This document shows positions 1,651-53,225 of a DNA stretch of 64,000 nucleotides, one piece after another; position 1 is the first letter of the stretch; each line of letters begins with the position of its first letter. Under the pieces are notes generated by a model, which was not told the DNA's origin, made no database searches, and was given only the letters and a program-made list of their open reading frames with translations. The position numbers and the translations under genes are program-made. Origin of the DNA: Celeribacter neptunius (GTDB lineage Bacteria; Pseudomonadota; Alphaproteobacteria; Rhodobacterales; Rhodobacteraceae); the NCBI RefSeq assembly GCF_900113955.1, contig NZ_FORH01000004.1:124001-188000 (forward strand), given 5' to 3'.

Positions 1651-1803
1651 TCCGCGGGCGTTCCGGTAAGATTATTCATCCTCGCACAGGCCATCGTGAC
1701 TGGAAATGTCGCGCTGAAAGCCTTATTGAACGGCAACCCCGTGCCGCTGGCCCCGTGCCCGCGACGCGGGCCAAGTGACGTTACAGAAACGAAAGCCAAC
1801 ACC

Positions 1804-3648: not shown

Positions 3649-3716
3649 TTCGGGCCGAGCAATCCGGGCAAGTGATCCGGTTAAATAAGGCTCTGATCCA
3701 GCCGAAAAGACACCAG

Positions 3717-3744
3717 ACGCCGCTCCATTCGGGGCGGCGTTTTT
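3717..3744 (+). terminator. Rho-independent terminator after ilvD
   Basis: ACGCCGCTCC pairs with GGGGCGGCGT (one T-G pair) around a 4-nt loop, followed by a T run. It sits between the convergent ilvD and META-domain genes. Confidence 0.85.
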
Positions 3745-3745
3745 G

Positions 3746-4645: not shown

Positions 4646-4710
4646 GGGTCACCTTCCTGTCAAACAATGCCTTGAGGAGGACAGGCGGCCCGCTCGCTGT
4701 CAACCAACGT

Positions 4711-6918: not shown

Positions 6919-6994
6919 GGGCCGTTAGCTCAGTTGGTAGAGCAACTGACTTTTAATCAGTGGGTCGCAGGTTCGAATCCTGCACGGCTCACCA
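6919..6994 (+). tRNA. tRNA-Lys (anticodon TTT)
   Basis: A 76-nt cloverleaf with acceptor GGGCCGT/ACGGCTC and encoded CCA. The anticodon loop reads CTTTTAA, anticodon TTT. Its 3' part, from base 6950 onward, is duplicated at 14136-14182, marking it as the integration site of the downstream element. The gene remains complete at the left end. Confidence 0.98.
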
Positions 6995-6996
6995 CT
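6950..6996. repeat. attL of the tRNA-Lys element
   Basis: A 47-bp stretch from within the tRNA-Lys anticodon arm to two bases past CCA, identical to 14136-14182. Sequence diverges immediately on both sides of the match. Confidence 0.93.
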
Positions 6997-7060
6997 TTCT
7001 TCCAGTAAGATCAAATGGTTAGGGGCAAAGACGCCCTATCACATCAGTTCCTGCTTTCTT

Positions 7061-7081
7061 TTCCGGAAGCAATAAGGAAGC
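7061..7081. repeat. Left arm-type repeat site
   Basis: TTCCGGAAGC is followed by 5 nt and a second GGAAGC. The same arrangement (dyad, GGAAGC-N5-GGAAGC) recurs at the other end of the element at 13984-14004. This resembles accessory (arm) sites bound by the N-terminal domain of tyrosine integrases. The repeat is seen directly; binding is inferred. Confidence 0.55.
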
Positions 7082-7395
7082 ATGCACAGGGAAGAAGCTG
7101 TGTGGCGAGGGAGCAACGGTGCCTCCATCTGGAATTCAGAGCGGCAGATACTCTGTCGCTCGACCGCGCTTTCCAAATTCTCAAATGACTATTTCGAGCG
7201 TTGTCTTGAATGCGCTCTTATTGAAGTTGATCGGAGTCGCTTCCTTGTCCGTCCTCAAGTTGGACCGGGTTCTAGTCGGCGGTGGAAGAAAAAACCGTGA
7301 CCGGTGAGTAGAATTAACGACAAGCCATAACTGTTGCGCCCCCGCAACATAGTAACCATTTTGCTCAATCTGCGGAAAGATCGTTTTCTTGCAAC
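7082..7395. other. Gene-free left end of the element
   Basis: No convincing gene is seen; the short frames lack a family signature or a good ribosome site. The one structure noted is an inverted repeat TGTTGCG-CCCC-CGCAACA at 7332-7349, which may be an operator or the hairpin of a small transcript. Confidence 0.4.
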
Positions 7396-7433
7396 CCATA
7401 CTTGTCCGTATACAATCCATACTAATTCGTATA
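7396..7433. promoter_or_regulatory. Two in-phase operator-like repeats upstream of the autotransporter
   Basis: The motif CCATACT-N4-CGTATA occurs at 7396-7412 and 7417-7433, a spacing of 21 bp or two helical turns. Each copy contains a small dyad ATAC-N6-GTAT. They lie 115-150 nt before the ATG at 7548. The layout suggests a dimeric regulator binding the same DNA face twice; the regulator is unknown. Confidence 0.5.
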
Positions 7434-7547
7434 GTCGCATAAGTGGGGCCGTATTTGGCCCCTGTCATGTTCGTTTAGATTTATGCTGGTTACTCTTAAC
7501 GCACAAAACGTTCCCAGTTCATGGGAAGAACACTCGCGGGGGATCAA

Positions 7548-9737: not shown

Positions 9738-9762
9738 TTGAGTTCATCAGAGAGAGAACAGG

Positions 9763-9795
9763 AGACAGCGCATAAAATATGCGCTGTCTTTTTTC
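9763..9795 (+). terminator. Strong terminator after the autotransporter gene
   Basis: AGACAGCGCATA pairs perfectly (12 bp) with TATGCGCTGTCT around a 3-nt loop, followed by a long T run. Confidence 0.93.
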
Positions 9796-9880
9796 TTTCT
9801 GCACGTCAACCATTGACGATCTCTCGCGTTTCTAAAGACTATCAAACATCTATTGCATTGAAAAATGCTACCCACCCACA

Positions 9881-11032
9881 TCACCCGACAAACCGATACC
9901 GTTCCTTGGCCTTGCTGAGCTTGTTCGCGGCGCGCTCGGGGTCGGCTTGGATTTCCGTCCGTAGCCGCTCGCCCATATCCTGCATGTAGCCCTGTAGATC
10001 GTCGCTCTCGACGCCCTCAAGGGCCGCTAGGGTGGTGCAATTGCCCAAGGCGAGGGCGAGGATCATTTTGATTTGATCGGCCTTGTGCACCTCCTTCACG
10101 GCGCTGGCGCCCACATGGCTGCGCAACTCGGTCAGGTCTTCGTCGGCGTCCACCTTGGCTATGTCCCAAATCTCATGGTTCGGCCAGCGGGCGCGGTTCG
10201 TGTCTGTCGGGTCGGGTTCGCAGTAGCGGATTTTCTCAAAGGCTTCCGCGATCACGTCGCCGAATTTGGCGTCGAAATCCTCCCATGTGGTGATGCCCCA
10301 GCGGTCTTTCATGATCCGCTTGCCCGCCCGCACCTCCACGCGCCAGATCCGGCTCTCAGAACGGTCTTTCGGGTCCAGAGGCGGCAGGCCCTCGGCTTTA
10401 CGGGTCTCGTTCCAGATGTCCCACCAGATCGGCTTGCGCTTGTCGGTGACTTCCAGCCGCTTGTCGTAGATGGTGACCTGTCGCCCCGGCATTTTGCCAA
10501 CGGTGACGGAGGTGAACCGCCCGGATTTGCCATTGCTCAGCGTGTGGTCCTCCGGGGTCAGGTGATCGGCGCGGTTCGAGTGGCTATGGATCACAAAATT
10601 CTCCGGCGTCAGCTCAAAATCCGGGGCCAGAATATCGACGCAAAAGTCGGTGCGCCCGATGCTGACCTGACGCGGGCCATAGCGCACGCCCAGCCGTTCC
10701 AGCGTGTTCGCGATGTGGGTCCGGACATAGCCCAGCCCTCGGGTGGCGAGCATGAGCGAGCCGACAACAATGCGGATGCCCCAAGGATCGCGGGCATTGG
10801 GCTTCTTGAAGAACCATGTGACCGGCAGAGGCCCGCTTTGCAGGATAAAGCGATAGCCCTGCACGCCATGGGGCAGCAGGTCAAATTCCGCCCCGCCATA
10901 GCTCACAGCGCGGCTCTCTCGGGCGTCCTCGGCCTCTTCGCGGATCGGGTCGAGATATTCGAACAGCTCGGGCGGAATATTGGCCTCAATCGACAGTTCC
11001 AGACGGTCAAAGCCACGGTGAAGGATGTTCAT
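9881..11032 (-). CDS. Putative rolling-circle replication initiator (Rep_trans/RstA-like)
   Basis: The 383-aa protein has the sequence landmarks of the replication initiation factor family (Rep_trans), which covers pT181-type plasmid Reps and filamentous-phage RstA-type proteins. An acidic metal-site-like segment GRTDFCVDI lies at 126-134. TIYDKRLE at 187-194 follows a VTVGK strand and supplies the candidate nicking Tyr189. WRVEVRAGK follows at 230-238. Such enzymes nick a double-strand origin and stay covalently attached through tyrosine. A perfect hairpin lies 37 nt upstream of the start. It reads with the 73-aa gene, the AlpA-like gene and the 238-aa gene in one leftward block. Assignment rests on motif reading alone. 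Confidence 0.65.
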   Translation of the reverse strand: MNILHRGFDRLELSIEANIPPELFEYLDPIREEAEDARESRAVSYGGAEFDLLPHGVQGYRFILQSGPLPVTWFFKKPNARDPWGIRIVVGSLMLATRGLGYVRTHIANTLERLGVRYGPRQVSIGRTDFCVDILAPDFELTPENFVIHSHSNRADHLTPEDHTLSNGKSGRFTSVTVGKMPGRQVTIYDKRLEVTDKRKPIWWDIWNETRKAEGLPPLDPKDRSESRIWRVEVRAGKRIMKDRWGITTWEDFDAKFGDVIAEAFEKIRYCEPDPTDTNRARWPNHEIWDIAKVDADEDLTELRSHVGASAVKEVHKADQIKMILALALGNCTTLAALEGVESDDLQGYMQDMGERLRTEIQADPERAANKLSKAKERYRFVG

Positions 11033-11068
11033 TGTTTTACTCTTTCTCTTTGGCGGACGGTATTTCCA

Positions 11069-11095
11069 GAGGGGGGTGCTACAATCACCCCCCTC
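11069..11095. repeat. Perfect 10-bp hairpin upstream of rep; candidate double-strand origin
   Basis: GAGGGGGGTG (11069-11078) and CACCCCCCTC (11086-11095) flank the 7-nt loop CTACAAT. There is no T-run after it on the minus strand, so it is not an ordinary terminator. Rolling-circle origins typically expose the nick site in such a loop next to the rep gene. Alternatives are an attenuator or an operator for rep. Confidence 0.5.
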
Positions 11096-11141
11096 ATTCG
11101 GCGGATGCCGCGCGTAATTTCTAAAGTTGTTTTGGAAGTGC

Positions 11142-11157
11142 GGGCGCTTGCGCGCCC
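11142..11157. repeat. Inverted repeat between rep and the 73-aa gene
   Basis: GGGCGC and GCGCCC flank a 4-nt loop in the 189-nt gap between rep and the next gene. It may add secondary structure to the leader of rep or to a replication origin. Confidence 0.35.
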
Positions 11158-11195
11158 TTTAACGGTGCCTCCGGCGGGGCAGCGATTGTTTTGGG

Positions 11196-11214
11196 GCCGG
11201 GCTGAACGCCCGGC
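11196..11214 (-). terminator. Hairpin just after the 73-aa gene
   Basis: GCCGGGC and GCCCGGC flank a 5-nt loop, 7 nt beyond the stop of the leftward 73-aa gene. The downstream tract is A-rich rather than T-rich on the transcript strand, so termination would be weak. Confidence 0.4.
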
Positions 11215-11221
11215 GCTCCAA

Positions 11222-11443
11222 TTAGCTGTTGGCCGCAAGCTGCTTTGCGATCCAGCTTTCGGCCCGTTCCGCGCATTTGGAGAGGTTCAGCAGGTCATTG
11301 TGACCGAAGCTCGCGGTGTTGCGCCAATCGCCCTCTTGCGTCTTGTAGGCGCGCGTCAGATCGACGGAATAGAACCCGTCATTGTTCCAGATGGTGGCGG
11401 TGATCAGGCCGATTTTGAACCTGTAAGCGGGTTGATTGGACAT
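11222..11443 (-). CDS. Small conserved element protein, possibly DNA-binding
   Basis: The 73-aa protein starts at MSNQPAYRFKIG after AGAAAGGAAATCACC. It has a short beta-rich body (ITATIWNNDGFYSVDLTRAYK) and a C-terminal helix ending AESWIAKQL. It resembles small proteins that accompany replication genes on mobile elements. A single-strand DNA-binding role is a guess based on the beta-rich, aromatic-containing sheet and its place between an AlpA-like regulator and rep. I do not recognise a named family. Confidence 0.6.
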   Translation of the reverse strand: MSNQPAYRFKIGLITATIWNNDGFYSVDLTRAYKTQEGDWRNTASFGHNDLLNLSKCAERAESWIAKQLAANS

Positions 11444-11594
11444 GGTGATTTCCTTTCTGTGCCAAGTCATTTCAGGGGCGGCAACGGGTATAGAAAGGGC
11501 GCGAGGTGACGGTGTCGCCCCGCGCCCCTAGAGCCATCCGGCCCCAAAATCCCGCTCGTTGCTGCCAACTCCGAACGGGCAAAACTCTCGTGAT

Positions 11595-11819
11595 TTAGGA
11601 AGGTGCGCTGGTCGTGTTGGCGACGCGCTTGGCGCTGATCCAGTCTTGCAGGTCGCGGCGCGTGTAGCGCACGGAGCGGCCCGAGACCTTGATGAACAAA
11701 GGCCCGCCCCCGCGCACACGCCAGTTCTGCAAGGCGCGCACGGAATAGCACAGGTAGCTGGCCGCGTCCTTCTCGTCGATCAGGCGGTCGTAGTAGTCAG
11801 GATCAAGTTGTGTTTGCAT
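11595..11819 (-). CDS. AlpA-like helix-turn-helix regulator/excisionase
   Basis: The 74-aa protein has the MerR-like winged HTH of AlpA/Xis proteins: DEKDAASYLCYSVRALQNWR, a GGGPLFIKVSGRSVRY wing, then RRDLQDWISAKRV. Family members act as recombination directionality factors or activate integrase expression. GAGGGCAAC precedes the ATG. It sits in the leftward block between the 238-aa gene and the 73-aa gene, as expected of the element's switch protein. Confidence 0.85.
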   Translation of the reverse strand: MQTQLDPDYYDRLIDEKDAASYLCYSVRALQNWRVRGGGPLFIKVSGRSVRYTRRDLQDWISAKRVANTTSAPS

Positions 11820-11923
11820 GTTGCCCTCGCTGCATGTCGTTGCGTTGAGAACAATATGAGGCGTATTGCGAATCGCTTCTAATGGCGGAAATGGACGCGT
11901 TTTGCGCCATTAACGCCATCGCC

Positions 11924-12640
11924 TTATTTTCTTAGGTTAAACGCGCGTCTGGCCGTGTCCCCGAGCACATGGCTGGTCGGGTTTTCCTGCCCGTACATCG
12001 ACCAGAAAACGAGGTGCAGGAGATCGAAGAACGGGCCGTGATAGACTTGAGCGTCATCAATCCCGTTCCAATCGTCGAAGCGATAGCCCGTCATCGGCTC
12101 CTGCCCGGTGTATTTTTTGAAAACGTATCCGAGTTCCTTGATCGTGTCGGAAAGGGTCTCGTTCTGTTTGGGTTTGCCTTTGGGCTTGTCGTGAACGCGC
12201 CTCGCCTCGTCGAGAATATCCGAGAAGGTCGCGAGACGATCTATCAGGAGATGAATGTGGTAGCCGCCGAAGCTCAGGCCTTCGTAGTCTTCCGGTAGGG
12301 TCGCTTCGAAATCTTCCGGCTCGACGCCGGTGCTGGCGGCGTCAATTTCCCAAACGATATGGTCGTGCATCTCGTCCAGTTGGTCTTGCAGGCTGGCAAT
12401 CGTCTTTTCGAGCTTGCGATAGATCGGCGTCCGCGTCTTGGCGTCGAGTGACACCTTTTGATCCGGGCCGGGGGAATAGAAGCTCATGGCCTCGGCAAGG
12501 TCGGCCTCGAAGGTGGCGGGGCAGTCTCCCTCAACACCGAGTGTCCGCCATGCTTTCGCAAGGTCCAGACGCGCGAAGGCTGCGGCCCGCTCCGCGATAC
12601 GTCTGCGTCCGGCGTCTGAGAGGTGAATGTCGTCGTCCAT
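11924..12640 (-). CDS. Hypothetical element protein with coiled coil
   Basis: The 238-aa reading starts at MDDDIHLSDAGRRRIAERA; a longer frame to 12685 runs into the upstream repeat region and is less likely. About residues 70-95 (YRKLEKTIASLQDQLDEM) form a helical, coiled-coil-like stretch. The remainder is acidic and helix-rich with no signal peptide or membrane segment. I recognise no family. It is the first gene of the leftward block and lies directly downstream of a cluster of CGATACGT repeats, so it could encode the regulator or replication accessory that uses them. Confidence 0.65.
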   Translation of the reverse strand: MDDDIHLSDAGRRRIAERAAAFARLDLAKAWRTLGVEGDCPATFEADLAEAMSFYSPGPDQKVSLDAKTRTPIYRKLEKTIASLQDQLDEMHDHIVWEIDAASTGVEPEDFEATLPEDYEGLSFGGYHIHLLIDRLATFSDILDEARRVHDKPKGKPKQNETLSDTIKELGYVFKKYTGQEPMTGYRFDDWNGIDDAQVYHGPFFDLLHLVFWSMYGQENPTSHVLGDTARRAFNLRK

Positions 12641-12661
12641 TGGTTTTTCTCTGGCTGCTCT

Positions 12662-12760
12662 CGATACGTTCGCTACGTAATGCAACCGGCGGCAGAATAC
12701 CCGCCCGTATCGTAGCGATACGTTACGTTAGGCATGAGCCGGGCGAAACGCCCGATACGT
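12662..12760. repeat. Cluster of CGATACGT repeats between integrase and the leftward operon
   Basis: CGATACGT occurs in direct orientation at 12662, 12716 and 12753. A reversed CGTATCG at 12706-12712 makes a 7-bp dyad with the second copy (CGTATCG-TAG-CGATACG). The cluster occupies the 123-nt gap holding the promoter of the leftward 238-aa gene. It could be operator DNA or an iteron-like origin. Confidence 0.6.
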
Positions 12761-12763
12761 AGC

Positions 12764-13954
12764 CTATCGAACCACACGCAACGCGGGGCCGTCCTGCCTG
12801 TCCCTGCTACGTACCGCACGAGCAAGACGCGCGGCGACAGACCCGGCAGCTTTTTGAACCGCGTCATCGGCGAGGTGCGCATAACGCAAAGTTGTGGTCA
12901 GGTTTTTGTGGCCCAAAATCTCCTTCAGCGTGAACGGGTCGATCCCGTCTTTCATCGCGACGGACGCATAGGTGTGACGCAGATCGTGGATACGCACGTC
13001 ATTCAAACCGGCCCGTTCCCGAATGCGCCGCCACGGCTTTTGCAGGTTCACCAAGGGCTGCCCCTCAACATCGCCCAAGATCACGTAGGGATTGCCCTCT
13101 TCTCGCGGCAGTTCCATCAGAATCTCGTAGGCCTCACGGGGGAGGGGGATGCGCCGCCGCCCGGTCTTGCTGTCCGGCAATTCCAAATGGTGGCTCGTCA
13201 CATAGTCCCATCGCAGCGTCAGAATCTCGTTGAGGCGACATCCGGTGTAAATCAACAGGAGGATTGCCGAGACTACGTAGACGCTCTCTGAGCCTTCTTC
13301 CAGCGACTCTGCAAGGACTTCACCAAGACGGATTTGCTCATCGTCGGAGAGATAGCGTTTCTTTTCTTCCTCGCGGAATTTCTTGATCCGTCGCGCGGGG
13401 TTCGATCCGGCCTGACGCAAGCCCCAGTCTTCGGCCAGATTGAAGAGTTTGGACAACATGCTGGCGGCGCGATTGGCCTGATAAGGCGTGTCCCGCAATT
13501 CGTGGTGAAACGCGACCACGTCGGCGCGACTTACTTCGGCGATTGCGATAGGGCCGAGTTTGGGCCGAATGAAACGCCGGATAATGCTGTGATAGTCGCG
13601 GGCAGTCGTCGGCTTGCAATGCTGATCCACATATTCTTCCAGAAAGCGATCACACAGCCCCGCAATCGTCGGAGCATGACGTTTAGCACGTCGCTGGGCC
13701 GAAGGGTCTTCCCCGCGTGCAACAGAGGCTAGAAGCTGCTTGGCCTCATTGCGCGCTTCCTCGGTCGTCAAAACACCATGCTGACCGATGGTGACGCGCC
13801 GTGTGCGGTGACCGGCACGATATTGCACGAGGTAGGTCTTCTTGCCGGAGGGATAGACCCGAATGCCAAAACCGCGCATGTCACGATCCCAGACAAAATA
13901 GTCCGCTGTTTCGACCTCGAGCCCTTCCACGGACCGTTTCGTCAGTTTGAACAT
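12764..13954 (-). CDS. int: P4-type tyrosine integrase
   Basis: The 396-aa protein has an N-terminal DUF4102-type arm-binding domain (MRGFGIRVYPSGKKTYLVQY), a SAM-like core-binding domain (about 95-185) and a catalytic domain. The full active-site set is visible: Arg240 (TGCRLNEI), Lys263 (SKTGRRR), His323/Arg326 (HDLRHTYAS), His349 (LGHKN) and Tyr358 (RYAHL). It is expected to recombine the tRNA-Lys 3' end. It lies at the attR end and reads inward; GGAAGC arm-like repeats overlap its upstream region, which would allow self-regulation. The ribosome site is weak (CAGGGAG ten bases off). Confidence 0.96.
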   Translation of the reverse strand: MFKLTKRSVEGLEVETADYFVWDRDMRGFGIRVYPSGKKTYLVQYRAGHRTRRVTIGQHGVLTTEEARNEAKQLLASVARGEDPSAQRRAKRHAPTIAGLCDRFLEEYVDQHCKPTTARDYHSIIRRFIRPKLGPIAIAEVSRADVVAFHHELRDTPYQANRAASMLSKLFNLAEDWGLRQAGSNPARRIKKFREEEKKRYLSDDEQIRLGEVLAESLEEGSESVYVVSAILLLIYTGCRLNEILTLRWDYVTSHHLELPDSKTGRRRIPLPREAYEILMELPREEGNPYVILGDVEGQPLVNLQKPWRRIRERAGLNDVRIHDLRHTYASVAMKDGIDPFTLKEILGHKNLTTTLRYAHLADDAVQKAAGSVAARLARAVRSRDRQDGPALRVVR

Positions 13955-13970
13955 TTCCAGAACACTCCCT

Positions 13971-14004
13971 GCTTCCGTTTTGCTTCCGGAAGCTATACGG
14001 AAGC
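13971..14004. repeat. Right arm-type repeat site, overlapping the int upstream region
   Basis: The arrangement is GCTTCC-N5-GCTTCC-GGAAGC-N5-GGAAGC, a symmetric set of four hexamers at 11-bp spacing. Its right half repeats the left-end site at 7061-7081. It begins 17 nt upstream of the int start. Confidence 0.6.
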
Positions 14005-14135
14005 AAATTGCGGTGAATTATGGCGTAACTGATGAAACGCCGGAGCGGTCGAGTTCAAGATAAATAATTGTTTATAATGCATTTTTGGAAATGCAGCGCA
14101 AACTGGCGAAATGCGTGAAAATCGCTCTGGCCGTT

Positions 14136-14182
14136 CTTTTAATCAGTGGGTCGCAGGTTCGAATCCTGCACGGCTCACCACT
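14136..14182. repeat. attR: 47-bp copy of the tRNA-Lys 3' end
   Basis: Identical to 6950-6996, including the T-arm and CCA. The 5' half of the tRNA is absent, so this is the displaced original chromosomal end and not a functional tRNA. Confidence 0.93.
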
Positions 14183-44016: not shown

Positions 44017-45003
44017 TCAGGTTTTGCCGAGCTGTTTGCCGCTTTCGCGAATCGCGTCGTACTGACCGGAGGGGCGATAGACCCACATGTAATCCGGCAG
44101 AACCGCCTGCAATGCGGTGGGCTTGATCCCGAGATCGGCAAAGCTCTTGGTCCCTTCGGACACCACATTGTCAACTTTCAGATTGGCCACCTGATCGCGG
44201 GTCAGGATCGAATTGTGGAACAGGCCAAGCGTGAGCGCCTGCGCCACACCGAAGCCGGTCGCCATCAGCTTGCCGATCCAGAACGGCAGGTTGATCACGA
44301 TGCGCTCGCGGTGCACCGCTTTCAGCACATCGCCCATCAGGCCTTTGAGCGTATCCACATCCGGACCGCCCAGCTCGTAGATGCCAGCACCGGCCTGGCC
44401 CAGCACGGCTTTGACGGCGGCCTGGGCCACATCATCGACATAGACCGGCTGGAATTTCGTATTGCCGCCGACCAGCGGCACAACCACGTTCTTTTCCGCC
44501 ATCTTGCCGAAACGGTTGAAGAACCCGTCCTCAGTGCCGAAAATCACCGAGGGGCGCAGGATCACGGCACTCGGGAAGGCGGCAAGGATCTTGGCCTCGC
44601 CCTCGGCCTTCGTGCGCGCATATTCGGAGGCGGCATTGGCGTCGGCGCCAATCGCCGAAAGATGCACGAGCTGGCCCACACCCTCTTCGGCGGCGATGCG
44701 GGCGATGCGCCCGGCGCCTTCGGCCTGTACGGCGGCAAAGCTGTTCTTGCCGCGCTCGGTCAGCACGCCCACACAGTTCACAACCGCGTCAGCCCCTGCC
44801 ATCGCGGCACGCACGGAAGCGTCGTCACGAATATTGCAGAACACCGGCTCGACCTGACCGACCGCGCCATAAGGTTTTACATGAAGCGACTCATTCGGAC
44901 GGCGTACGGCAACGCGGACGCGCCAGCCCTCCTTTGCCATACGACGGGCGATATACCGCCCGACAAAGCCAGCGCCGCCATAGATGGTGACCAGTTTCGT
45001 CAT
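44017..45003 (-). CDS. Complex I NDUFA9-like NAD(P)-binding protein
   Basis: The 328-aa protein is an atypical SDR with VTIYGGAGFVGRYIARRM at the N-terminus, VVNCVGVLTERGKNSFAAV, and the YVDDVAQA segment. Alphaproteobacterial homologues are related to the mitochondrial complex I accessory subunit NDUFA9 and to ubiquinone-linked proteins. The start at 45003 follows GGAGATGCAG. Its exact role is unproven. tRNA-Leu starts 143 nt further right. Confidence 0.87.
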   Translation of the reverse strand: MTKLVTIYGGAGFVGRYIARRMAKEGWRVRVAVRRPNESLHVKPYGAVGQVEPVFCNIRDDASVRAAMAGADAVVNCVGVLTERGKNSFAAVQAEGAGRIARIAAEEGVGQLVHLSAIGADANAASEYARTKAEGEAKILAAFPSAVILRPSVIFGTEDGFFNRFGKMAEKNVVVPLVGGNTKFQPVYVDDVAQAAVKAVLGQAGAGIYELGGPDVDTLKGLMGDVLKAVHRERIVINLPFWIGKLMATGFGVAQALTLGLFHNSILTRDQVANLKVDNVVSEGTKSFADLGIKPTALQAVLPDYMWVYRPSGQYDAIRESGKQLGKT

Positions 45004-45146
45004 CTGCATCTCCAATGCCAAATTGCCGCTATTGCTTAGCTTTTAGAGCAGAAATGAACAAGACGCTATTGCAGGAACAAAAAACCTTTCAAATGGCCGT
45101 TGACACCGGCCGCAAGGCCTATTACATCGCGGCCTCACGACATCGT

Positions 45147-45233
45147 GCCCAGATGGCGGAATTGGTAGACGCGCTAGCTTCAGGTGCTAGTGTCCGTATG
45201 GACGTGGAGGTTCGAGTCCTCTTCTGGGCACCA
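45147..45233 (+). tRNA. tRNA-Leu (anticodon CAG)
   Basis: An 87-nt class-II cloverleaf with acceptor GCCCAGA/TCTGGGC, long variable arm and encoded CCA. The anticodon loop TTCAGGT presents CAG. The last 16 bases recur at 52949-52964, marking it as the integration site of the second island. Confidence 0.97.
45218..45233. repeat. attL of the tRNA-Leu island
   Basis: CCTCTTCTGGGCACCA, the 3' end of tRNA-Leu including CCA; identical to 52949-52964. Confidence 0.85.
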
Positions 45234-45290
45234 CTATCCCCCTCATATCTCGATGAAACCGAAAGAAAACAGGTATCTAGCCTGTTTTTG

Positions 45291-45320
45291 GGACCATTTA
45301 CTGGACCGCTTTCAGGACCA
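45291..45320. repeat. Left GGACC arm-type repeats
   Basis: GGACC occurs at 45291, 45303 and 45315, exactly 12 bp apart. Two copies with the same spacing sit at the opposite end of the island (52869, 52881). This looks like integrase arm-binding DNA and lies upstream of the first integrase. Confidence 0.55.
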
Positions 45321-45393
45321 CTTTGAGATCTGCTCGGTAAATTTTACGAGCATTTTGTAGCGCCTCTGGTTATGTTTCGCGCGAATAAGTGAG

Positions 45394-46701
45394 ATGGATC
45401 AGATGGCCGAAAAGCTACCCAAATACGTCTTCAAGCGCCCCAATGGCAGTTACAGATACAAGCGCAATGTTCCCAAGGACTTACGCAGAGTTATCCCGAA
45501 GGCCACTGTCTACCGCAAGCTCGGCAATACCTATCAAGAGGCAATAGCAGCACTGCCAGTCGCTCATGCCGAAATCGAAGCTCTTTTTGACCGAGAACGT
45601 CGGACTTCCGATGAACACCGCGCCGCAATGCTCGTTCGAGAACGTTTGGGCAAGTCGACCTATAATGCTTATCGAGATGGCGTTATCGATATCTACTGGC
45701 AGGAATACGACGATCTTTTGGAGCTCGCAGAAGACACTGAGGGGAACGTCCCGCCTGGCGTGACTAACGCTTTGAATAGGGCAAGATATATAAAGCCGTC
45801 AGTCACGTTCGATCAGGCGCTCAGAGAGTACGAAGAGTTTCTGCGTGAAGACGGGAAAGACGATAGCGGCCTCAAAGCTCGTATGGCGCGGATAAAGCGA
45901 GATCTTATTATTTGCCTTGGCGACAAGCTGTTCGAACAAGCTGATCTCAAATTGATTACCCGAGCGAACGCAAATGCCTTTCGCGACATGTTGCTCGCAC
46001 GAATGTCCCCTAACTCTGTCCAACGCAACGTCGGTGTCGTCAAAGCAGCCCTCAACCATGCTATCCTTGAACACGACCTCGACATCAAGAACGTGTTCCA
46101 GGCCCTAAAGATCAAAGGGGCGGGCAGCAGCAAAACAGATCGCCTTCCAATCACGGACGAACAGCTCAGAGACATCTGGCCCGCCTTCAAGAGCAGCACC
46201 ACTGCACTATCCCTGTTGCTCCTCCTCACCGACACTGGAGCACGGCTGTCGGAAATCACGGGTTTAGCAACTGGAGACATCGATCTAGAGGCAGGTATCC
46301 TTCATATCAGAGAGAACAGTTTCCGTAGCCTTAAGACCAAGACATCAACCCGAGACGTTCCGCTCTCCCAGAGAGCCACGGACTGCCTCAGAGAGCTTAC
46401 TAAGAGCATGCCGGATGGGTCTCCCATCTTTTCGAGATATGCCGTTCCTCGCGGCAATGACAAAGCCTCTGCCATGCTAATGAAGCGGCTTCGAAGTGTT
46501 ATCTCGGACAAGAAGATCACGATCCACTCTCTGAGGCATCGAATGAAGGACAAGCTTCGAAACACGGGCTGTCCCGAAGTGCTCTCGATGGCCATTTTGG
46601 GACACAGCACCAACACCGTGGCAGCGAATTATGGTTCGGGCTATGCGATCCAAACCATGAGGGATGCGATGGCAAAGGTTTGGCCAAGCACGCCCAGTTA
46701 A
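45394..46701 (+). CDS. int: Tyrosine integrase of the tRNA-Leu island
   Basis: The 435-aa recombinase has an N-terminal arm-binding region (YVFKRPNGSYRYKRNVPKDL), a core-binding region (about 130-235) and a catalytic domain. The latter shows Arg in TGARLSEI, Lys in LKTKTSTRDV, His/Arg in HSLRHR, His in LGHSTN and Tyr in AANYGSGY. A start at 45403 (MAEKLPKYV) is equally possible. Adjacent to the tRNA and arm-like repeats, it is the likely enzyme for integration at tRNA-Leu. Confidence 0.94.
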   Translation: MDQMAEKLPKYVFKRPNGSYRYKRNVPKDLRRVIPKATVYRKLGNTYQEAIAALPVAHAEIEALFDRERRTSDEHRAAMLVRERLGKSTYNAYRDGVIDIYWQEYDDLLELAEDTEGNVPPGVTNALNRARYIKPSVTFDQALREYEEFLREDGKDDSGLKARMARIKRDLIICLGDKLFEQADLKLITRANANAFRDMLLARMSPNSVQRNVGVVKAALNHAILEHDLDIKNVFQALKIKGAGSSKTDRLPITDEQLRDIWPAFKSSTTALSLLLLLTDTGARLSEITGLATGDIDLEAGILHIRENSFRSLKTKTSTRDVPLSQRATDCLRELTKSMPDGSPIFSRYAVPRGNDKASAMLMKRLRSVISDKKITIHSLRHRMKDKLRNTGCPEVLSMAILGHSTNTVAANYGSGYAIQTMRDAMAKVWPSTPS

Positions 46702-46892
46702 TCCAGCAAATTCAGGCGATGGCAAATCGACCAAAACAGTCAAAACTGCCGTCATATAACTTGTTGTTTTTAACCATATAAATATTACCTCCGACTATAG
46801 GTAGAAGGCTATTGATGATCACAGTCAAAAGAAATGCTTGATTATTGATATGCCCTCAAATCGAAGAAGAGGATGGGGCGCACCCATACCCT

Positions 46893-46920
46893 TACCTATT
46901 ACCTATTACCTATTACCTAT
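46893..46920. repeat. Four perfect tandem copies of TACCTAT
   Basis: The 7-mer repeats four times without change and is followed by an AT-rich run, ending 36 nt before the ATG of the orphan 207-aa gene. The copy number could vary by slippage and alter promoter spacing, or the repeats could be a binding array. The remaining gap 46702-46956 shows no gene. Confidence 0.85.
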
Positions 46921-46956
46921 ATATTGTTATTATTTATCAATTACTTATGAGGAAAT

Positions 46957-47580
46957 ATGAATCATTCAACAAGCTATATTGACCCGAAATTCTTCAACGC
47001 AAACCTCTCTCAATACCAAGGCTACCACCTCCAAGTATTTCGTGCAGGTCGCGCCAAGATTAGTCTGCAGGCCGAAACCCAACAGAAGCACGAATATTTT
47101 GCACAGCGGCCCAAAAGGGACCTTGAGGGCTACGGACGTCAAAAAGCCCGTTCACGCGATAATTCAAAGGAACATTTTCGGATCGTTGATCGTTTGCTTG
47201 CCGATAACACCGATGCGAAGGTGTATCGTCTGTATGCTAAAGGAAACAATAACGAAACGGCAGACAACGCGCATCTGATTGCGTCGGTGGCGAAGAAAAC
47301 CATTTGGCTCGTCATGGGAACTATCACACATCGCTGGATCGTGCTCTCAGCGGTTGTTGAATGGCTTGTTTCTGGGAAGGGCGCGCGCACAGGTGAGCAG
47401 AGCCTATTTAACGAATACATGCCATCGTACGAGCACGACTGGCAGGATGCTTCCTTTCTGCCCGAAGACTACAAGCATGAAATAAGAGACAATGTCTTTG
47501 AACTTAACCCTCAGCACTCTAGCAGAACCAATACGACGCAGGGTAGCTATGAAGTCGACGAGAACGGAACCATATTTTAG
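46957..47580 (+). CDS. Orphan island protein of unknown function
   Basis: The 207-aa protein is not recognised. GAGGAAAT precedes the ATG. The sequence is polar, with one hydrophobic stretch in the middle (TIWLVMGTITHRWIVLSAVVEWLV, about residues 113-136, allowing one membrane pass or a buried hairpin). The C-terminus is acidic. Its codon use is AT-rich relative to core genes, as expected for acquired DNA. It stands alone between the first integrase and the second integrase operon. Confidence 0.65.
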   Translation: MNHSTSYIDPKFFNANLSQYQGYHLQVFRAGRAKISLQAETQQKHEYFAQRPKRDLEGYGRQKARSRDNSKEHFRIVDRLLADNTDAKVYRLYAKGNNNETADNAHLIASVAKKTIWLVMGTITHRWIVLSAVVEWLVSGKGARTGEQSLFNEYMPSYEHDWQDASFLPEDYKHEIRDNVFELNPQHSSRTNTTQGSYEVDENGTIF

Positions 47581-47616
47581 GCGCTCCCGCATCTATAATA
47601 TGGCTGTCTCACTTTG

Positions 47617-47633
47617 AATATAGATGTATATTT
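47617..47633. repeat. Near-repeat with the right end of the island
   Basis: AATATAGATGTATATTT differs by one base from AATATAGAGGTATATTT at 52852-52868. Both lie in AT-rich DNA, so chance is possible, but the positions would suit boundaries of a nested element containing the second integrase. The gap 47581-47867 holds no other clear feature besides the dyad at 47836. Confidence 0.3.
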
Positions 47634-47835
47634 TCAATATGATAACGTAAAATCTTACCAGAGATTCGATACCTAAGCGTCCTGCAGACATTGATTAAGT
47701 GCAGCACCCTTTGGCTGTGTGCTAAACACCAAAGGCTGTGAGTGTGATCGACCACACCACGTCTTGCAACACAAAAGCAGAACCAAGTCGATTGCACCTC
47801 GCATTGCCCAGCAAACTGAGAAACTTCGGGCATCT

Positions 47836-47856
47836 ATGATGGTAACCAACCATCAT
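47836..47856. promoter_or_regulatory. Dyad operator candidate before the second integrase operon
   Basis: ATGATGGT and ACCATCAT flank a 5-nt centre, just upstream of the ribosome site of the 77-aa gene. The position suits a repressor site controlling the small operon that contains the second integrase. Confidence 0.5.
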
Positions 47857-47867
47857 GGAGACAAACA

Positions 47868-48101
47868 ATGTTTACCTCATTCACGCTGCTCGCACTTGCG
47901 GGTGGCGCTTTTCGCTTTGGCACGGGCTTGCTTCTCGCCCGCAAGTGGAACCTCACCATCAGCCTACCTCAACTGTTTGCTGTGGGGCTCGTTGTCCTTG
48001 CGGCTCTACCTGACCTCATCAAACCCCTGCCCTTCCCCTTTCCTCTCGGACTGACCTTGGGCTTCGTCCTTCCGGACCTGATCATTGCGAGGCGCTCATG
48101 A
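47868..48101 (+). CDS. Small membrane protein
   Basis: The 77-aa protein has two or three hydrophobic segments (TLLALAGGAFRFGTGLLLA, QLFAVGLVVLAAL, LGLTLGFVLPDLIIA) and is predicted to be an inner-membrane protein. ATGGAGACAAACA precedes the ATG. Its stop overlaps the next start in ATGA, indicating coupling. No family recognised. Confidence 0.6.
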   Translation: MFTSFTLLALAGGAFRFGTGLLLARKWNLTISLPQLFAVGLVVLAALPDLIKPLPFPFPLGLTLGFVLPDLIIARRS

Positions 48102-48322
48102 CAATCAATGACACCTTGCTCACTCCCGGCGCAATCGTCGTAATCGCCGGTTTTGACGACATCCCCTCACACCTCTTCCAGATCGATGAAGTCTACGAAG
48201 ATGTTGTGACCGGCATTGCTCTCACTGGCCCGCTTGAGGGCGAATACGGAGAGCCGGACAAGAGCCTAATCCAGCGGATTTGGCCAAATGACACACAAGA
48301 GGCCTCTCAGGGATCATCGTAA
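48098..48322 (+). CDS. Small acidic hypothetical protein
   Basis: The 74-aa protein starts within the ATGA overlap. It is acidic and beta-rich (PGAIVVIAGFDDIPSHLFQIDEV), perhaps an SH3-like or small regulatory domain; no family is recognised. It lies 80 nt before the second integrase and reads in the same direction. Confidence 0.6.
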   Translation: MTINDTLLTPGAIVVIAGFDDIPSHLFQIDEVYEDVVTGIALTGPLEGEYGEPDKSLIQRIWPNDTQEASQGSS

Positions 48323-48402
48323 ACCCTGAGCCCCTCTGATCTTTCTCGGAAAATCTCACATCAGACACAAAACCGGGGCGTTTGCCCCGGAAAGGAGACC
48401 CT

Positions 48403-49644
48403 ATGTCTGCCAAGATCAAGTATGCCTATCTGCGGCACAACACATGGATTTATCGCAGAACCTACCCCAAGCCTCTGCAACCTGTCTTGGGCTCCGCGCT
48501 CAAGCGCTCCCTTCGCACCTCTGACGCTAGAACCGCCCAGTCCCGTGTGAAGGACCTCAACGCCACCTATGACCGCATTGTCATGGAGGCAGAGAATCAA
48601 CTCAAGGAAGCCAACCAAGAGCCCTCCGATCGGCTCGATGTCACTTTGCCCCGCTTCAAGCGTCTCAGGCTCATTGGCGAACAGGAGGTGGGAGCGCTTG
48701 CCTCTACCTATCTGGCTGCCGCTTATCAGCGCTTGCGTCCCGGCAGCTACAAGTCGGTTCGCTTCGCCATGGAGTTGCTGTCCTCGCATCTGGGAGCGCA
48801 GAAGATCGGGGAACTCTCACCAAGCACCGGACGGGAGGTACTTGCTCTCATTGGGCAGCTCTCTCCCAACATCCGCAAGTATGCGGAGGCACAGGGTCAA
48901 TCCCTGAGCCAGTTGGCAGAGCTCTCTCAGACCCTCGAGGGAATATCCCTGACCCCGCAGACCCAGAGGCGGATCTGGGAGCAGATGTCTGCCTTCCTAG
49001 ACTGGTGTGTAGAGCAAGGCGAAAGCGATACCAACCCGTGGGAAAAGCTCAAGGTCAATGCGCCACCCGAGCCGGACCCGCACCGGGTTCTGACAGATAA
49101 GCAGGTCGTCATATTGCTGGCGGAGAAAGACAGGGCACTTCACGGTGCCCTTCTTTTTGGCCTACTCACAGGTCTTCGCTCTGGTGAAATCTGTGGTCTC
49201 ATGGCTGAGGATGTCACGCAGAAGGGCAACCTCGGGTGGTTTGTCATGGTCAGGCCCAACGCGGTTCGCTTGCTGAAGTCAAAGGCGGCGGAACGGGAAG
49301 TGCCTCTTCATCCTGTCCTGGAACAGTATCTGGATGGATCTTACGGACGACAGGGGCGGCTTTTCCCGAGCCTCTCGGTCGATCGGGTGGTGAAGTCTTA
49401 TGCCAAACTCCGGTCACTGCATCCCGAGCTCTCCGGTACAGTGTTCCACTCCACCCGCAAGTGGTTCGTCACCCAATGCGAGCGCACAGGTGTGCCTGAG
49501 CACTTCACAGCAGCACTGGTGGGGCATCAGTCGGCACGGTCACAAAACCGGCTCACCTACGGGCTCTACTCTGCCGGGATCAATGATGAACAAAAGCGAG
49601 AGATCATCGATCAACTGCGGCTACCAGTGGAGGTGTCGCCATGA
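48403..49644 (+). CDS. Second tyrosine recombinase of the island
   Basis: The 413-aa protein starts at MSAKIKYAYLRHNTWIYRR after AAAGGAGA; an in-frame ATG at 48382 lies before the ribosome site. The N-terminus resembles the DUF6538 arm domain common in alphaproteobacterial integrases. The catalytic residues are visible as Arg in TGLRSGEI, Lys in LKSKAAEREVPLH, His/Arg in HSTRKWF, His in VGHQS and Tyr in LTYGLYS. Its sequence is clearly different from the first integrase, so it probably serves another attachment site or came with an earlier element. A 62-aa gene overlaps its stop by 4 nt. Confidence 0.92.
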   Translation: MSAKIKYAYLRHNTWIYRRTYPKPLQPVLGSALKRSLRTSDARTAQSRVKDLNATYDRIVMEAENQLKEANQEPSDRLDVTLPRFKRLRLIGEQEVGALASTYLAAAYQRLRPGSYKSVRFAMELLSSHLGAQKIGELSPSTGREVLALIGQLSPNIRKYAEAQGQSLSQLAELSQTLEGISLTPQTQRRIWEQMSAFLDWCVEQGESDTNPWEKLKVNAPPEPDPHRVLTDKQVVILLAEKDRALHGALLFGLLTGLRSGEICGLMAEDVTQKGNLGWFVMVRPNAVRLLKSKAAEREVPLHPVLEQYLDGSYGRQGRLFPSLSVDRVVKSYAKLRSLHPELSGTVFHSTRKWFVTQCERTGVPEHFTAALVGHQSARSQNRLTYGLYSAGINDEQKREIIDQLRLPVEVSP

Positions 49645-49829
49645 CTCCCCGCCCCCACATCATCCCCGATATCGAGGCCTTCGAGGAGAGAGCTGCCATT
49701 GCCGAGTATGATGGGTGGCTGTCACGCAAACAGGCTGAAGACCTCGCGGCCCGCGCTCAAGGCTTCGTGAGTGCTGATCAGTATTGGGAAGTTCTCGCCG
49801 ACTATGTCATCAACAGACGCTTCACGTAG
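49641..49829 (+). CDS. Small protein coupled to the second integrase
   Basis: The 62-aa protein overlaps the integrase stop in ATGA. It is helical (YDGWLSRKQAEDLAARAQGF) and could be an integrase accessory factor. No family is recognised. After it, 49830-50107 holds a GC-rich hairpin-like stretch (CCCCCGTCC near 49841 and GGGCGGGGG near 49868) but no convincing gene. Confidence 0.65.
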   Translation: MTPRPHIIPDIEAFEERAAIAEYDGWLSRKQAEDLAARAQGFVSADQYWEVLADYVINRRFT

Positions 49830-50107
49830 ATGGATCATGCCCCCGTCCGGTTGCCTTCATTGGCGATTGGGCGGGGGAAAGCCTTTGAATATCTCTTTTC
49901 ACCCACTATGCTGCTTTTCGGCATAAAGCGTTTCAGTCATGGGGCTTCAATGTCCGCCAATTCAGGCATTCGCTGCGTCAGTGCGATTGGAGACTGCTCG
50001 AAGTCACATTGCTCGGGAGGCCCTGCTTTAGATGGCTTTGCATTACGCGTCCGTTTCGTCATCGTGCGCCCCAGTCTTAATTGTAGCAGTCACATATTGG
50101 AGACCCC

Positions 50108-51718
50108 ATGACCTTTAATCTCAGCTTCCCGACACAGAGCGCCAATTTCGCCAATATGCAGCTACACGCAGGTGAATTGATCTTCGTATTGGGCGCGAAT
50201 GGCACTGGCAAGTCGAGCCTTATGCATCTTTTCGCAAGCCGCAATCAGAACAACGTTCGCAAGATATCTGCTCATCGGCAAACGTGGATGAACTCGAATG
50301 CCTTGGACATGACGCCCGCGAACAAGTTACAGACTGAGGCACATCTTAAGACGGATGACCGCAGGCAGGAATCTCGCTACAAAGACCCCTACGGGGCGCA
50401 ACGGGCAAGCATGACTGTATATGAATTGATCAACGCGGAAAACGTTCGTGCAAGGTCGATAGCTGCTGCAGTTGATGCGAACGATAGCGAAGCTGTTAAC
50501 GAAGCCAAGAAGGTCGAAGCCCCGATTACCGTCATTAACGAACTGCTACGTGAGTCGAATATCCCGATCAAGATTACAGTTCGTGCAGATGAACGGGTAA
50601 TGGCGAGCAAGGACGGCGGCCCAGAATACAGTGTAGCTGAGTTGTCAGATGGAGAGCGCAATGCTCTCTTGATTGCGGGCAACGTGCTGACTGCGCCTAA
50701 AGGAACTCTGCTGATCATCGATGAACCAGAGAGGCACCTACATCGTTCGATTATTGCTCCACTGCTGAGCCTGCTATTTGAACAGCGCTCTGACTGTGGG
50801 TTCGCCGTCTCTACGCATGACCACGATCTGCCTCTCGAAGTGCCCGGAGCTAGAACGCTTCTAATTCGTGCGTGCAGCTTCAATGGCCAACATGCGCAAA
50901 TTTGGGAGGCTGATGAACTGCCTGCGGAGGCGCCGATCGACGATGTCCTCAAACGCGATCTTCTCGGCTCGCGTCGGAGGATGTTGTTCGTCGAAGGAAC
51001 CGAAAGCAGCTTGGATAAGCCCCTCTACAGCTTGATCTTTCCCATGGTGTCAGTGATTCCGAAAGGTAATTGCCGAGAAGTCGAGAACGCGGTTTCCGGC
51101 AGTCGTTCTGGTGAAAGCTTCCACTGGCTTAGAGCGTTCGGTATCGCTGATGGTGACGGCTACAATGAAGAACAGATTGAATCTAAACGACAACGAGGCG
51201 TATATGCACTTCCGTTTTATTCCGTTGAAGCCATATATTTCCACCCTGAGATAATAAATAGGATCGCTGCTCGAAAAGCGGAAGTGGATGGTAGTGACGC
51301 AGTCAAGGTTGCAGAGCAAGCCATCTTGGGTGGCGTCATAAGCGTTTCTGATCACACTGACCGCCTCAGCAAAAACGCTGCAAAGAAGGCTGTGCGCAAA
51401 CTGATCATGGATCAGCTTCCGAATGATGACGATCTTCTTAACGGACAAGAAATCACATTCACGAATTGCGGCCCTCAAATTCACGCAACGAGGAAAGCAG
51501 AACTTGATGCTGCGGTCGAAGACAATGACTGGATCACGATTCTTAATCGGTGTTCCATTCGGGAGTGCGGGGCGCGCAATAGCATCATCGAGGCACTTGG
51601 GTTCCGTACGATAGCTGATTATGAGAAAGCTGTACGTCATTTGCTTGTCGTCGATGATGATGCGCTCACGTTTGTGCGTGGCCTATTCGGACAACTTCCC
51701 GCAGACTTGGAAATTTGA
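50108..51718 (+). CDS. Fused ABC ATPase-DUF4435/TOPRIM protein, PARIS-like (AriA-AriB fusion) defence candidate
   Basis: The 536-aa protein has two parts. Residues 1-275 form an AAA15/ABC-type ATPase: Walker A GANGTGKS (29-36), signature LSDGERNALL (179-188), Walker B LLIIDEP (201-207) and a switch His in STHDHD (237). Residues 290-400 match the DUF4435/TOPRIM plan: RMLFVEGTESS with Glu296, FGIADGDGY with Asp348 and Asp350, and a later VYALPFYSVEAIYFHPEII segment. In PARIS systems AriA (ATPase) holds AriB (DUF4435 nuclease) until a phage anti-restriction protein triggers release; single-gene fusions are known. OLD-family nucleases are the main alternative, but their TOPRIM is not DUF4435. It stands alone in the island, as a self-contained defence gene would. 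Confidence 0.7.
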   Translation: MTFNLSFPTQSANFANMQLHAGELIFVLGANGTGKSSLMHLFASRNQNNVRKISAHRQTWMNSNALDMTPANKLQTEAHLKTDDRRQESRYKDPYGAQRASMTVYELINAENVRARSIAAAVDANDSEAVNEAKKVEAPITVINELLRESNIPIKITVRADERVMASKDGGPEYSVAELSDGERNALLIAGNVLTAPKGTLLIIDEPERHLHRSIIAPLLSLLFEQRSDCGFAVSTHDHDLPLEVPGARTLLIRACSFNGQHAQIWEADELPAEAPIDDVLKRDLLGSRRRMLFVEGTESSLDKPLYSLIFPMVSVIPKGNCREVENAVSGSRSGESFHWLRAFGIADGDGYNEEQIESKRQRGVYALPFYSVEAIYFHPEIINRIAARKAEVDGSDAVKVAEQAILGGVISVSDHTDRLSKNAAKKAVRKLIMDQLPNDDDLLNGQEITFTNCGPQIHATRKAELDAAVEDNDWITILNRCSIRECGARNSIIEALGFRTIADYEKAVRHLLVVDDDALTFVRGLFGQLPADLEI

Positions 51719-52247
51719 TCCTAATTTGCACCGGACTTGGCCATATCGGCTTTTGCAAGAGTGAGAGATCCTGTTGGCTTCTGCAGCGAACGTTCGCATC
51801 TCGCGCAAATAGGATATTTACTCGTATTGTGACGACAATCTTCTCACAACCCTACGATCCGATAAGGTCCATTATGAGAACAAGTCTAAAATAAACGTGT
51901 TCCAACTAGTCCTTGCGATACCATCGCATATTTTGAGCATCACGACCCTCGTCACTGATACGCCCCTCTAAAAATGAGGGGATTACCATCTCAAGCCCAC
52001 TACTGAGGACACTCTAAGTCGAGGTCCATGCGAAAACCTAGATCACTCGGTGTAAATTGGCAGGAAATCGTTGCTAAAGGTGTGCCCAATACCTGCTCGT
52101 AAAACACCTACTGCTTGCTCTGCAGGTTGTCTGTGGCGTAAGCGAGACAGTTCATCTGATGACACAGCCCTAACGACGTGGAAATAGCATGTCGCAAACT
52201 AAAGTTGGTTATACTTTATTGTTTCCCATTCCTTAATGACCGAGATT
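51719..52247. other. 529-nt gene-free stretch after the ATPase-DUF4435 gene
   Basis: No convincing gene is seen in either strand. A 6-bp hairpin CCCCTC-N7-GAGGGG lies at 51963-51981 without a T run. The stretch is moderately AT-rich. A small RNA or decayed cargo DNA cannot be excluded. Confidence 0.35.
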
Positions 52248-52715
52248 TCAGCCGCCGGTTGCTCTGGCAATCCCACTATGGATATAATCTGAAACAGCGG
52301 CTATATCTGGGCTAGGCTGCTGCAACTTCATCTCTGCTTCTTCGAGACGGTTTTTGAGCAGTTGAATCCTCGATTCTAATAGAGACACTGCTTCATCAGT
52401 GTCGACCTCAAGCTGGCTAAATGCGCTTCGTGCCTCACGCCCAGCAAACCCCTCAACGACATACAACTGCCCATCGACGGTGAGATTGAACACTTGTTCG
52501 AAAGACACCTCACACTGAATGCCTTTCCACTCAGCAGTGCTAAAGCCGAGGATGCGTCCGGTGTAGCGCACATCAAATTCGTCCACTTTACGTGCGGAAT
52601 ACGCCTCAACCGCTTCAATACACGCTAAAATATTTCCAGCATCACCGGCTCTTACGGCACTTGGACTTGCCGAGATGACCCCAGCAAGAAGTGGAATGAC
52701 AATGAAAGCTTTCAT
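52248..52715 (-). CDS. Secreted or periplasmic hypothetical protein with coiled coil
   Basis: The 155-aa reading starts at MKAFIVIPLLAGVISASPSAVRA, a signal peptide, after GGGGAAAAG; a longer frame to 52850 precedes this. The mature domain has two cysteines (LACIEAV, IQCEVSF) that could form a disulfide. The C-terminal third is a heptad-rich coiled coil (VSLLESRIQLLKNRLEEAEM). No family is recognised. It is the only leftward gene in the island, near attR. Confidence 0.65.
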   Translation of the reverse strand: MKAFIVIPLLAGVISASPSAVRAGDAGNILACIEAVEAYSARKVDEFDVRYTGRILGFSTAEWKGIQCEVSFEQVFNLTVDGQLYVVEGFAGREARSAFSQLEVDTDEAVSLLESRIQLLKNRLEEAEMKLQQPSPDIAAVSDYIHSGIARATGG

Positions 52716-52868
52716 CTTTTCCCCAAAGAATAGATTTGAATATGTGGCTACAGTATTGCACCCGCACATACTGTCGGCGCAACCCCCGAGAGTGTTGGGT
52801 GGTTTGTAGAGGTTGCCTTCGCCGCTTAAGCATGAAGAAATTCGGCGCATAAATATAGAGGTATATTT

Positions 52869-52885
52869 GGACCATTTTTAGGACC
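52869..52885. repeat. Right GGACC arm-type repeats
   Basis: GGACC at 52869 and 52881, with the same 12-bp spacing as the left-end set at 45291-45320. Both sets lie just inside their att core. Confidence 0.5.
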
Positions 52886-52948
52886 ACTATCTCAAAATTA
52901 TATATCATAAGTACCTATGAATAAATAGAATATTAAAGTTTTCGATTG

Positions 52949-52964
52949 CCTCTTCTGGGCACCA
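52949..52964. repeat. attR of the tRNA-Leu island
   Basis: A 16-bp copy of the tRNA-Leu 3' end (CCTCTTCTGGGCACCA) without the rest of the tRNA. Beyond it, 52965-53225 shows no convincing gene. Confidence 0.85.
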
Positions 52965-53225
52965 TTACCCCCCCTTGATATCCGATGCTCTGACACGAAG
53001 ATCTCGCGAAACGAGGGGCCGGTACCCGCGTGCGCAGACTTGACTTACAGCCCCGCCGATTCCCATATGAGAGCGGCATTGCCAGATCAGAAAGGCGAGG
53101 ACGGGCCGCTGTCATTCGAATTTTCCAACCATGTCATCGGCCACCTCGCCGGGACTCGACCCGGCCCCGGCATCAGCGATGGTGATCTGGCCCTGTCGCC
53201 CATGCGCGCCACGCGTCGCTGAGCC

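Follow-up and report, generated by a model that had tools for sequence, protein, structure and literature searches.

The window analysed here, a stretch of 64,000 nucleotides of the Celeribacter neptunius genome, carries an island of about 7.7 kb that has a low GC content, two tyrosine integrases and an att repeat, matching at 23 of 25 nucleotides, at a tRNA-Leu gene. The integration target is a tRNA-Leu(CAG) located by ARAGORN at 45147-45233 (+). One copy of the 25-nt direct repeat, which is attL-like, lies over the 3' end of the tRNA at 45218-45242 (+), and the attR-like copy is found at 52949-52973 (+). Beside the tRNA there is a tyrosine integrase of 435 aa (45394-46701, +; Pfam Phage_integrase 5.8e-17; phrog_1). 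The second tyrosine integrase, 420 aa with a DUF6538 N-terminus, is encoded at 48382-49644 (+; Phage_integrase 1.4e-7, DUF6538 2.1e-11; phrog_1) and its end is overlapped by a 62-aa ORF without a Pfam match (49641-49829, +). The island also contains a 207-aa ORF at 46957-47580 (+) and, at its right end, a 200-aa ORF at 52248-52850 (-) with a start that resembles a signal peptide when judged by eye; neither of them matches a family above a cut-off.

Downstream of the second integrase, a single uninterrupted frame at 50108-51718 (+) encodes a 536-aa protein, which is a fused AriA-AriB (PARIS-type) protein according to the ORF, the PADLOC AriAB family PDLC02982 and Pfam AAA_21 plus DUF4435. GGAG is present a little 5' of the ATG. 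A promoter scan, which is a weak test, detected no consensus sigma-70 promoter upstream of the gene, and a terminator scan returned no more candidates than were found in shuffles. The coordinates and length of the ORF are those given in a first-pass annotation of this DNA, which had also placed the gene in an integrase-bearing island at tRNA-Leu, and the repeats and the two integrases agree with that placement.

The borders of the island are reflected in base composition and in homology. GC content ranges from 0.47 to 0.57 in the eight 1-kb bins covering 45001-53000 and from 0.57 to 0.63 in the five bins on each side. Homology of the left flank to six loci of the same genus ends between 45233 and 45268, at or just past the end of the tRNA. 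No empty site was identified, as nine island and flank proteins had no match beyond the tRNA in these six loci, and a rhomboid-family protein of the right flank has just weak matches elsewhere (at most 41% identity). The fused AriAB gene was found in none of the 19 genomes of the same genus that were searched, which is consistent with a recent arrival.

A second tRNA-anchored island is present in the window at 6919-14182. It starts at a tRNA-Lys (6919-6994) and has an exact repeat of 47 nt, at 6950-6996 in the 3' part of the tRNA and at 14136-14182. This island contains an integrase (12764-13954) and a 738-aa autotransporter (7521-9737), and its GC content is lower at 7-10 kb.

Domains and conserved residues of the fused protein

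The protein consists of two halves. Residues 1-274 (50108-50929, +) form an AriA-like ABC ATPase half that is recognized by Pfam AAA_21 and ABC_tran, by invariant motifs and in an AF2 model. Residues 275-536 (50930-51715, +) form an AriB-like DUF4435/TOPRIM nuclease half with a helical C-terminus, as indicated by DUF4435, AF2 and Foldseek. The Pfam scores are 42.4 bits for AAA_21 (cut-off 27), 41.3 bits for ABC_tran (cut-off 25) and 32.0 bits for DUF4435 (cut-off 27), and AAA_15 falls under its threshold (24.6 vs a cut-off of 32.1). An ABC/AAA15 ATPase had been proposed for the N-terminal half; the complete ABC-type ATPase stands but the AAA15 label does not, since the Pfam family is AAA_21. 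The DUF4435/TOPRIM-like C-terminus proposed for the other half is retained, with DUF4435 passing the Pfam cut-off and AriB first among the matches of the predicted fold.

Single-gene AriAB fusions were reported when PARIS was first described, according to PMC9122126, and they are also modelled in PADLOC. The window protein is therefore a further member of a known fused form, as the suggestion that merged PARIS forms are known had implied. The profiles for this form are described as resting on AAA_15 or AAA_21 plus DUF4435 in one protein (PMC9122126), and here AAA_21 and DUF4435 are both above cut-off in one chain. The assignment to the fused form was made with the Pfam cut-offs and the PADLOC PDLC02982 score. 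PDLC02982, the fused AriAB family, is the best PADLOC match (186.4 bits, E 2.1e-55) and aligns residues 2-433 with profile positions 26-467 of 570; the runners-up are AriA (1.9e-13) and AriB alone (8.5e-8). The top PHROG is phrog_25246 (1.1e-61), which is in the category moron/host takeover. A literature search, which was incomplete, found no experimental study of the fused form, although one may exist.

All the motif residues named in the first-pass annotation were located: Walker A at residues 29-36, the signature from 179 onward, the Walker B/DEP segment that ends at 207 and includes D205-E206, and H237 in the ATPase half, followed by E296, D348 and D350 in the nuclease half. D303, E374 and R485 are additional residues of note in the nuclease half. 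In an alignment of 35 fused proteins, which includes the window protein, G29, N31, G32, G34, K35, S180, G182, E183, D205, E208 and H237 of the ATPase and E296, D303, D348, D350 and E374 of the TOPRIM domain are identical in all 35. Other columns of this alignment are less strict, as position 36 is Ser or Thr, D181 is changed to Glu in one of the 35 proteins and E206 is replaced in two.

Comparison of the window gene with its closest relative gave a pS of 0.80 and a pN of 0.20. Synonymous sites are saturated, thus no ratio of the two is given, but the constraint on amino-acid changes is far beyond chance. This bears on whether the gene is a decayed or inactive remnant, as might be suggested by the promoter scan described above. 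A full-length frame, intact motifs and strong amino-acid constraint argue against a remnant, and this explanation is considered very improbable.

Relatives and their genomic neighbourhoods

The closest relative found is WP_241420088.1 (L014) from a plasmid of Acidiphilium multivorum, which is 69% identical over the full length, lies beside a resolvase and is annotated only as an AAA family ATPase. Full-length relatives with 29-31% identity are found on E. coli and Salmonella plasmids of 5-11 kb and on a Kocuria plasmid. Matches at E<=1e-20 were obtained in 5 of 385 genomes from the class and in 11 of 398 from the phylum, with the genome of the window counted. Single-sequence scans of genome and viral contigs returned no relatives; those described here came from whole-genome and plasmid searches and from an alignment query.

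A tree of the 35 fused proteins separates a clade A of 16 members, including the window protein, from a clade B of 19 with support of 100/100, and the earlier proposal that the sequence may represent a divergent branch is supported by this split. The tree is unrooted, so that the split does not indicate which form is older, and the long end branches of L039, L005 and L021 were flagged. The window's own copy (L001) and the partial matches L002, L032-L035, L043 and L044 were left out of the tree, and L006 was set aside owing to its ambiguous orientation. Five clade B proteins (L010, L017, L018, L020 and L021) score 348-582 bits with PDLC02982 and six clade A proteins score 146-212.

The window protein and other single-gene AriAB fusions (PMC9122126; PDLC02982) share domain order, the Pfam pair, the catalytic acids and a compact ATPase. 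They are also similar in length, with 536 aa compared to a model of 570 positions, and each half has profile homology to 19 further fusions, at E values of about 1e-59 and 1e-49. However, the window protein belongs to a separate, fully supported branch, has lower PDLC02982 scores and has R485 in place of Lys. Position 485 is Arg in 15 of the 16 clade A proteins and Lys in the remaining one, and it is Lys in 19/19 clade B proteins. Clade A marks a branch in which the tRNA target and the phage trigger may differ.

Variations on the fused arrangement were observed in clade B. In L020, a Paraburkholderia sabiae plasmid, a fused AriAB lies immediately after a two-gene pair of AAA ATPase and DUF4435 (1345-5620), so that the two forms are adjacent. 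In L017, a Rhizobium plasmid, the fusion at 4004-6226 has 740 aa, with about 200 extra C-terminal residues past the AriAB match. Small plasmids of E. coli and Salmonella repeatedly carry a clade A fusion (for example L015, p2323-3), which is mostly annotated as just an AAA family ATPase.

Several clade A genes are located next to phage or defence genes. On a viral contig, L038 lies between Phage_GPA and the portal and terminase genes. In P2-like phages, anti-phage systems are described as concentrated in the interval from gpA to the portal gene gpQ, with old and tin at this site in P2 (PMC9122126), and L038 occupies this hotspot in a P2-like element. L036 and L037 are beside capsid genes, L036 also beside a portal gene, and L041 is beside a terminase gene, while L039, L042 and L023 adjoin integrases. 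The 6.5 kb plasmid of L015 also encodes a ToxN/AbiQ-family toxin by annotation, and the neighbours of L016 are a protein annotated with a TIR domain and a type IIG restriction-like enzyme. Ten of the neighbours were examined with PADLOC, which recognized both neighbours of L016 and one at L042; the other seven had no match at E<=1e-10. A mobile-element setting is visible in 11 of the 16 clade A rows, but the 16 rows include 6 that come from a virus collection and 3 from plasmids. Among the 6 from general genome collections, for which 1-4 neighbours per locus were scanned, a mobile-element neighbour is seen only at L023.

The presence of these genes on small plasmids and islands could also point to a protein that derives from PARIS but serves element maintenance or another purpose than defence, for example by stabilizing the island or excluding competing elements rather than phages. 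The window island, in which few genes other than the two integrases have a known function, could be read in the same way. However, among the relatives there are genes at a defence position in a prophage and genes next to those for phage structural proteins, and a maintenance role appears quite improbable.

Comparison of the two halves with AriA-AriB and OLD proteins

Another explanation that has to be considered is a DNA nuclease of the OLD family (class 1-like) encoded by one gene, in which an ATPase-controlled TOPRIM domain would cut phage DNA or recombination-intermediate DNA and not tRNA. OLD class 1 proteins and Gabija GajA resemble the window protein in that a single chain has an ABC ATPase followed by a TOPRIM domain, and their ATPase halves are related to it. 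PARIS ATPases are placed in the OLD family in PMC12839542, and according to PMC10568477 it is not clear if the fused AriAB forms an OLD class of its own or if it operates differently. The difference lies in the TOPRIM domain, which in the window protein is of the DUF4435 type and not OLD-like, with a predicted fold nearer to AriB.

At E<=0.01, DUF4435 is detected in 16/16 clade A proteins and the OLD-like TOPRIM (PF20469) in 0/16. The model PF20469 is listed for PARIS as well as Gabija in PMC10952713, therefore the presence of DUF4435 carries more weight than the absence of PF20469. PADLOC AriAB matches all 16 clade A proteins and the PADLOC AriB model matches 11 of the 16 at E<=1e-5. No GajB-type helicase was found beside the window gene when six island proteins were scanned at family cut-offs.

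The AF2 model of residues 275-536 (18 rows) has a pLDDT of 90.9 and a pTM of 0.85. A Foldseek search of the PDB with this model gave one match below 1e-3, chain 8ux9_A of the PARIS complex (E 3.1e-4, probability 1.00), which was taken as AriB from its length and from the label AriA on 8ux9_B. The alignment has 307 columns over a chain of 306 residues; the whole-chain TM is 0.38 with an rmsd of 14 A, and because this TM is low the overall arrangement is poorly matched. The second match is OLD 6p74 at E 0.029, about 100-fold weaker. A search of a viral fold library returned no match below 1e-3. The C-terminal profile did not retrieve an AriB chain from the PDB sequences but four unrelated chains; this result is uninformative because a two-gene AriB used as a control failed in the same search.

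Profile comparisons gave a similar order. The C-terminal half of clade A matches two-gene AriB (n=5) with E 1.1e-5 and a probability of 61%, and OLD-type C-termini (n=7) with E 8.4e-4 and a probability of 10%. The two-gene set consists of five systems, three identified with the PADLOC AriB model and two by annotation, and 5 of 12 OLD-type proteins were dropped as the cutting pattern missed them. The OLD-type C-termini have no similarity to clade B (E 0.68) or to two-gene AriB (0.78), thus clade A is the nearest to OLD, a point in favour of an OLD nuclease. However, E374 is invariant in the fused proteins and has a counterpart, the Glu-Asn pair after D-x-D, in 5/5 two-gene AriB proteins.

For the ATPase half, the profile comparison places OLD ATPases (E 2.7e-17) nearer than two-gene AriA (6.4e-12). 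The full-length AF2 model (pLDDT 86.8, pTM 0.55) also has OLD 6p74 as its top PDB match; the ATPase dominates this fold search, as most of the matches that follow are SMC heads, GajA and retron ATPases, and AriA does not appear among the best 50 matches listed. The stretch from Walker A to the signature has 150 residues in the window protein, 149-152 in clade A and 119-162 in clade B, compared to 242-361 in five two-gene AriA proteins from other genomes. All 35 fused proteins are thus compact, with about 90-210 residues fewer than two-gene AriA in this stretch, and the signature region of the structurally characterized AriA, which has 464 residues, is at 362-461. A compact ATPase was thus seen in all the fused proteins examined, and their form cannot be described as a plain joining of two-gene AriA to AriB. 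The two-gene PARIS of E. coli B185 (AriA-AriB; PDB 8ux9, 8v45) has the same combination of ATPase and DUF4435/TOPRIM, but the window system is one polypeptide with a short ATPase.

Taken with the PADLOC AriAB match and the mobile island, DUF4435 and the predicted C-terminal fold favour the PARIS-type fusion that was first suggested over an OLD or Gabija identity, and a DNA nuclease of the OLD family is considered unlikely. The profiles for AriA, AriB, DUF4435 and OLD and a structure prediction were among the checks named with that suggestion.

Proposed mode of action

In two-gene PARIS, a hexamer of AriA holds AriB and phage proteins such as Ocr are the trigger (PMC12409363; PMC11455837). AriB acts as a dimer and cuts the anticodon stem of tRNA-Lys and other tRNAs (PMC12409363; PMC11455837). 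Two-gene PARIS is described as a ring from which AriB is released, but the mechanism of activation has yet to be clarified according to PMC12409363.

The window gene is probably a one-protein PARIS-type abortive-infection system carried as cargo by the integrase island at tRNA-Leu. The N-terminal ABC ATPase would be the sensor; it probably oligomerizes and would hold the C-terminal TOPRIM nuclease in check. Recognition of a phage protein would then lead to a rearrangement of the nuclease halves into an active dimer that cuts specific host tRNAs with a two-metal site made up of E296, D348 and D350, with D303 and E374 probably assisting. Cleavage of tRNA would stop translation and thereby phage growth. 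The analysis established the domain content, the intact motifs, the nearest families and the mobile location, while oligomeric sensing, tRNA cleavage and growth arrest are carried over from PARIS, and on this analogy the most likely event upon sensing of a phage trigger is the cutting of a host tRNA.

Because the nuclease is covalently tethered to the ATPase, activation of an uncut chain would have to proceed by a conformational change or by an exchange of partners, either inside one oligomer or from one oligomer to another. The sensing step is the least transferable part of the comparison with PARIS, as the ATPase is short and nearer to OLD ATPases than to AriA, and Ocr sensing should not be assumed since all 35 fused ATPases are compact. 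It has tentatively been suggested here that the fused proteins represent a compact PARIS design, in which the nuclease is activated on its tether by rearrangement within an oligomer of the ATPase, and in which the trigger recognized by the short ATPase is something other than an Ocr-like DNA mimic. If this suggestion, which is possible but somewhat doubtful, is true, then PARIS immunity does not require AriB to be released. As long as the chain is intact, the tether prevents a separate subunit from leaving, so the window protein would be a clean test of whether release matters, and a compact natural fusion offers a simple construct for testing release versus activation directly.

Two further observations concern the tRNA target and the host. 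The basic residue 485, near the C-terminus, may match R236 of AriB, which is described as contacting tRNA (PMC12409363). On one contig of the host genome, a weakly matching HsdR-like ORF (27.3 bits with a cut-off of 25.1) and an N6-methylase are separated by about 5 kb, which is consistent with a restriction system for PARIS to guard, and a second, weaker HsdR match is found on another host contig.
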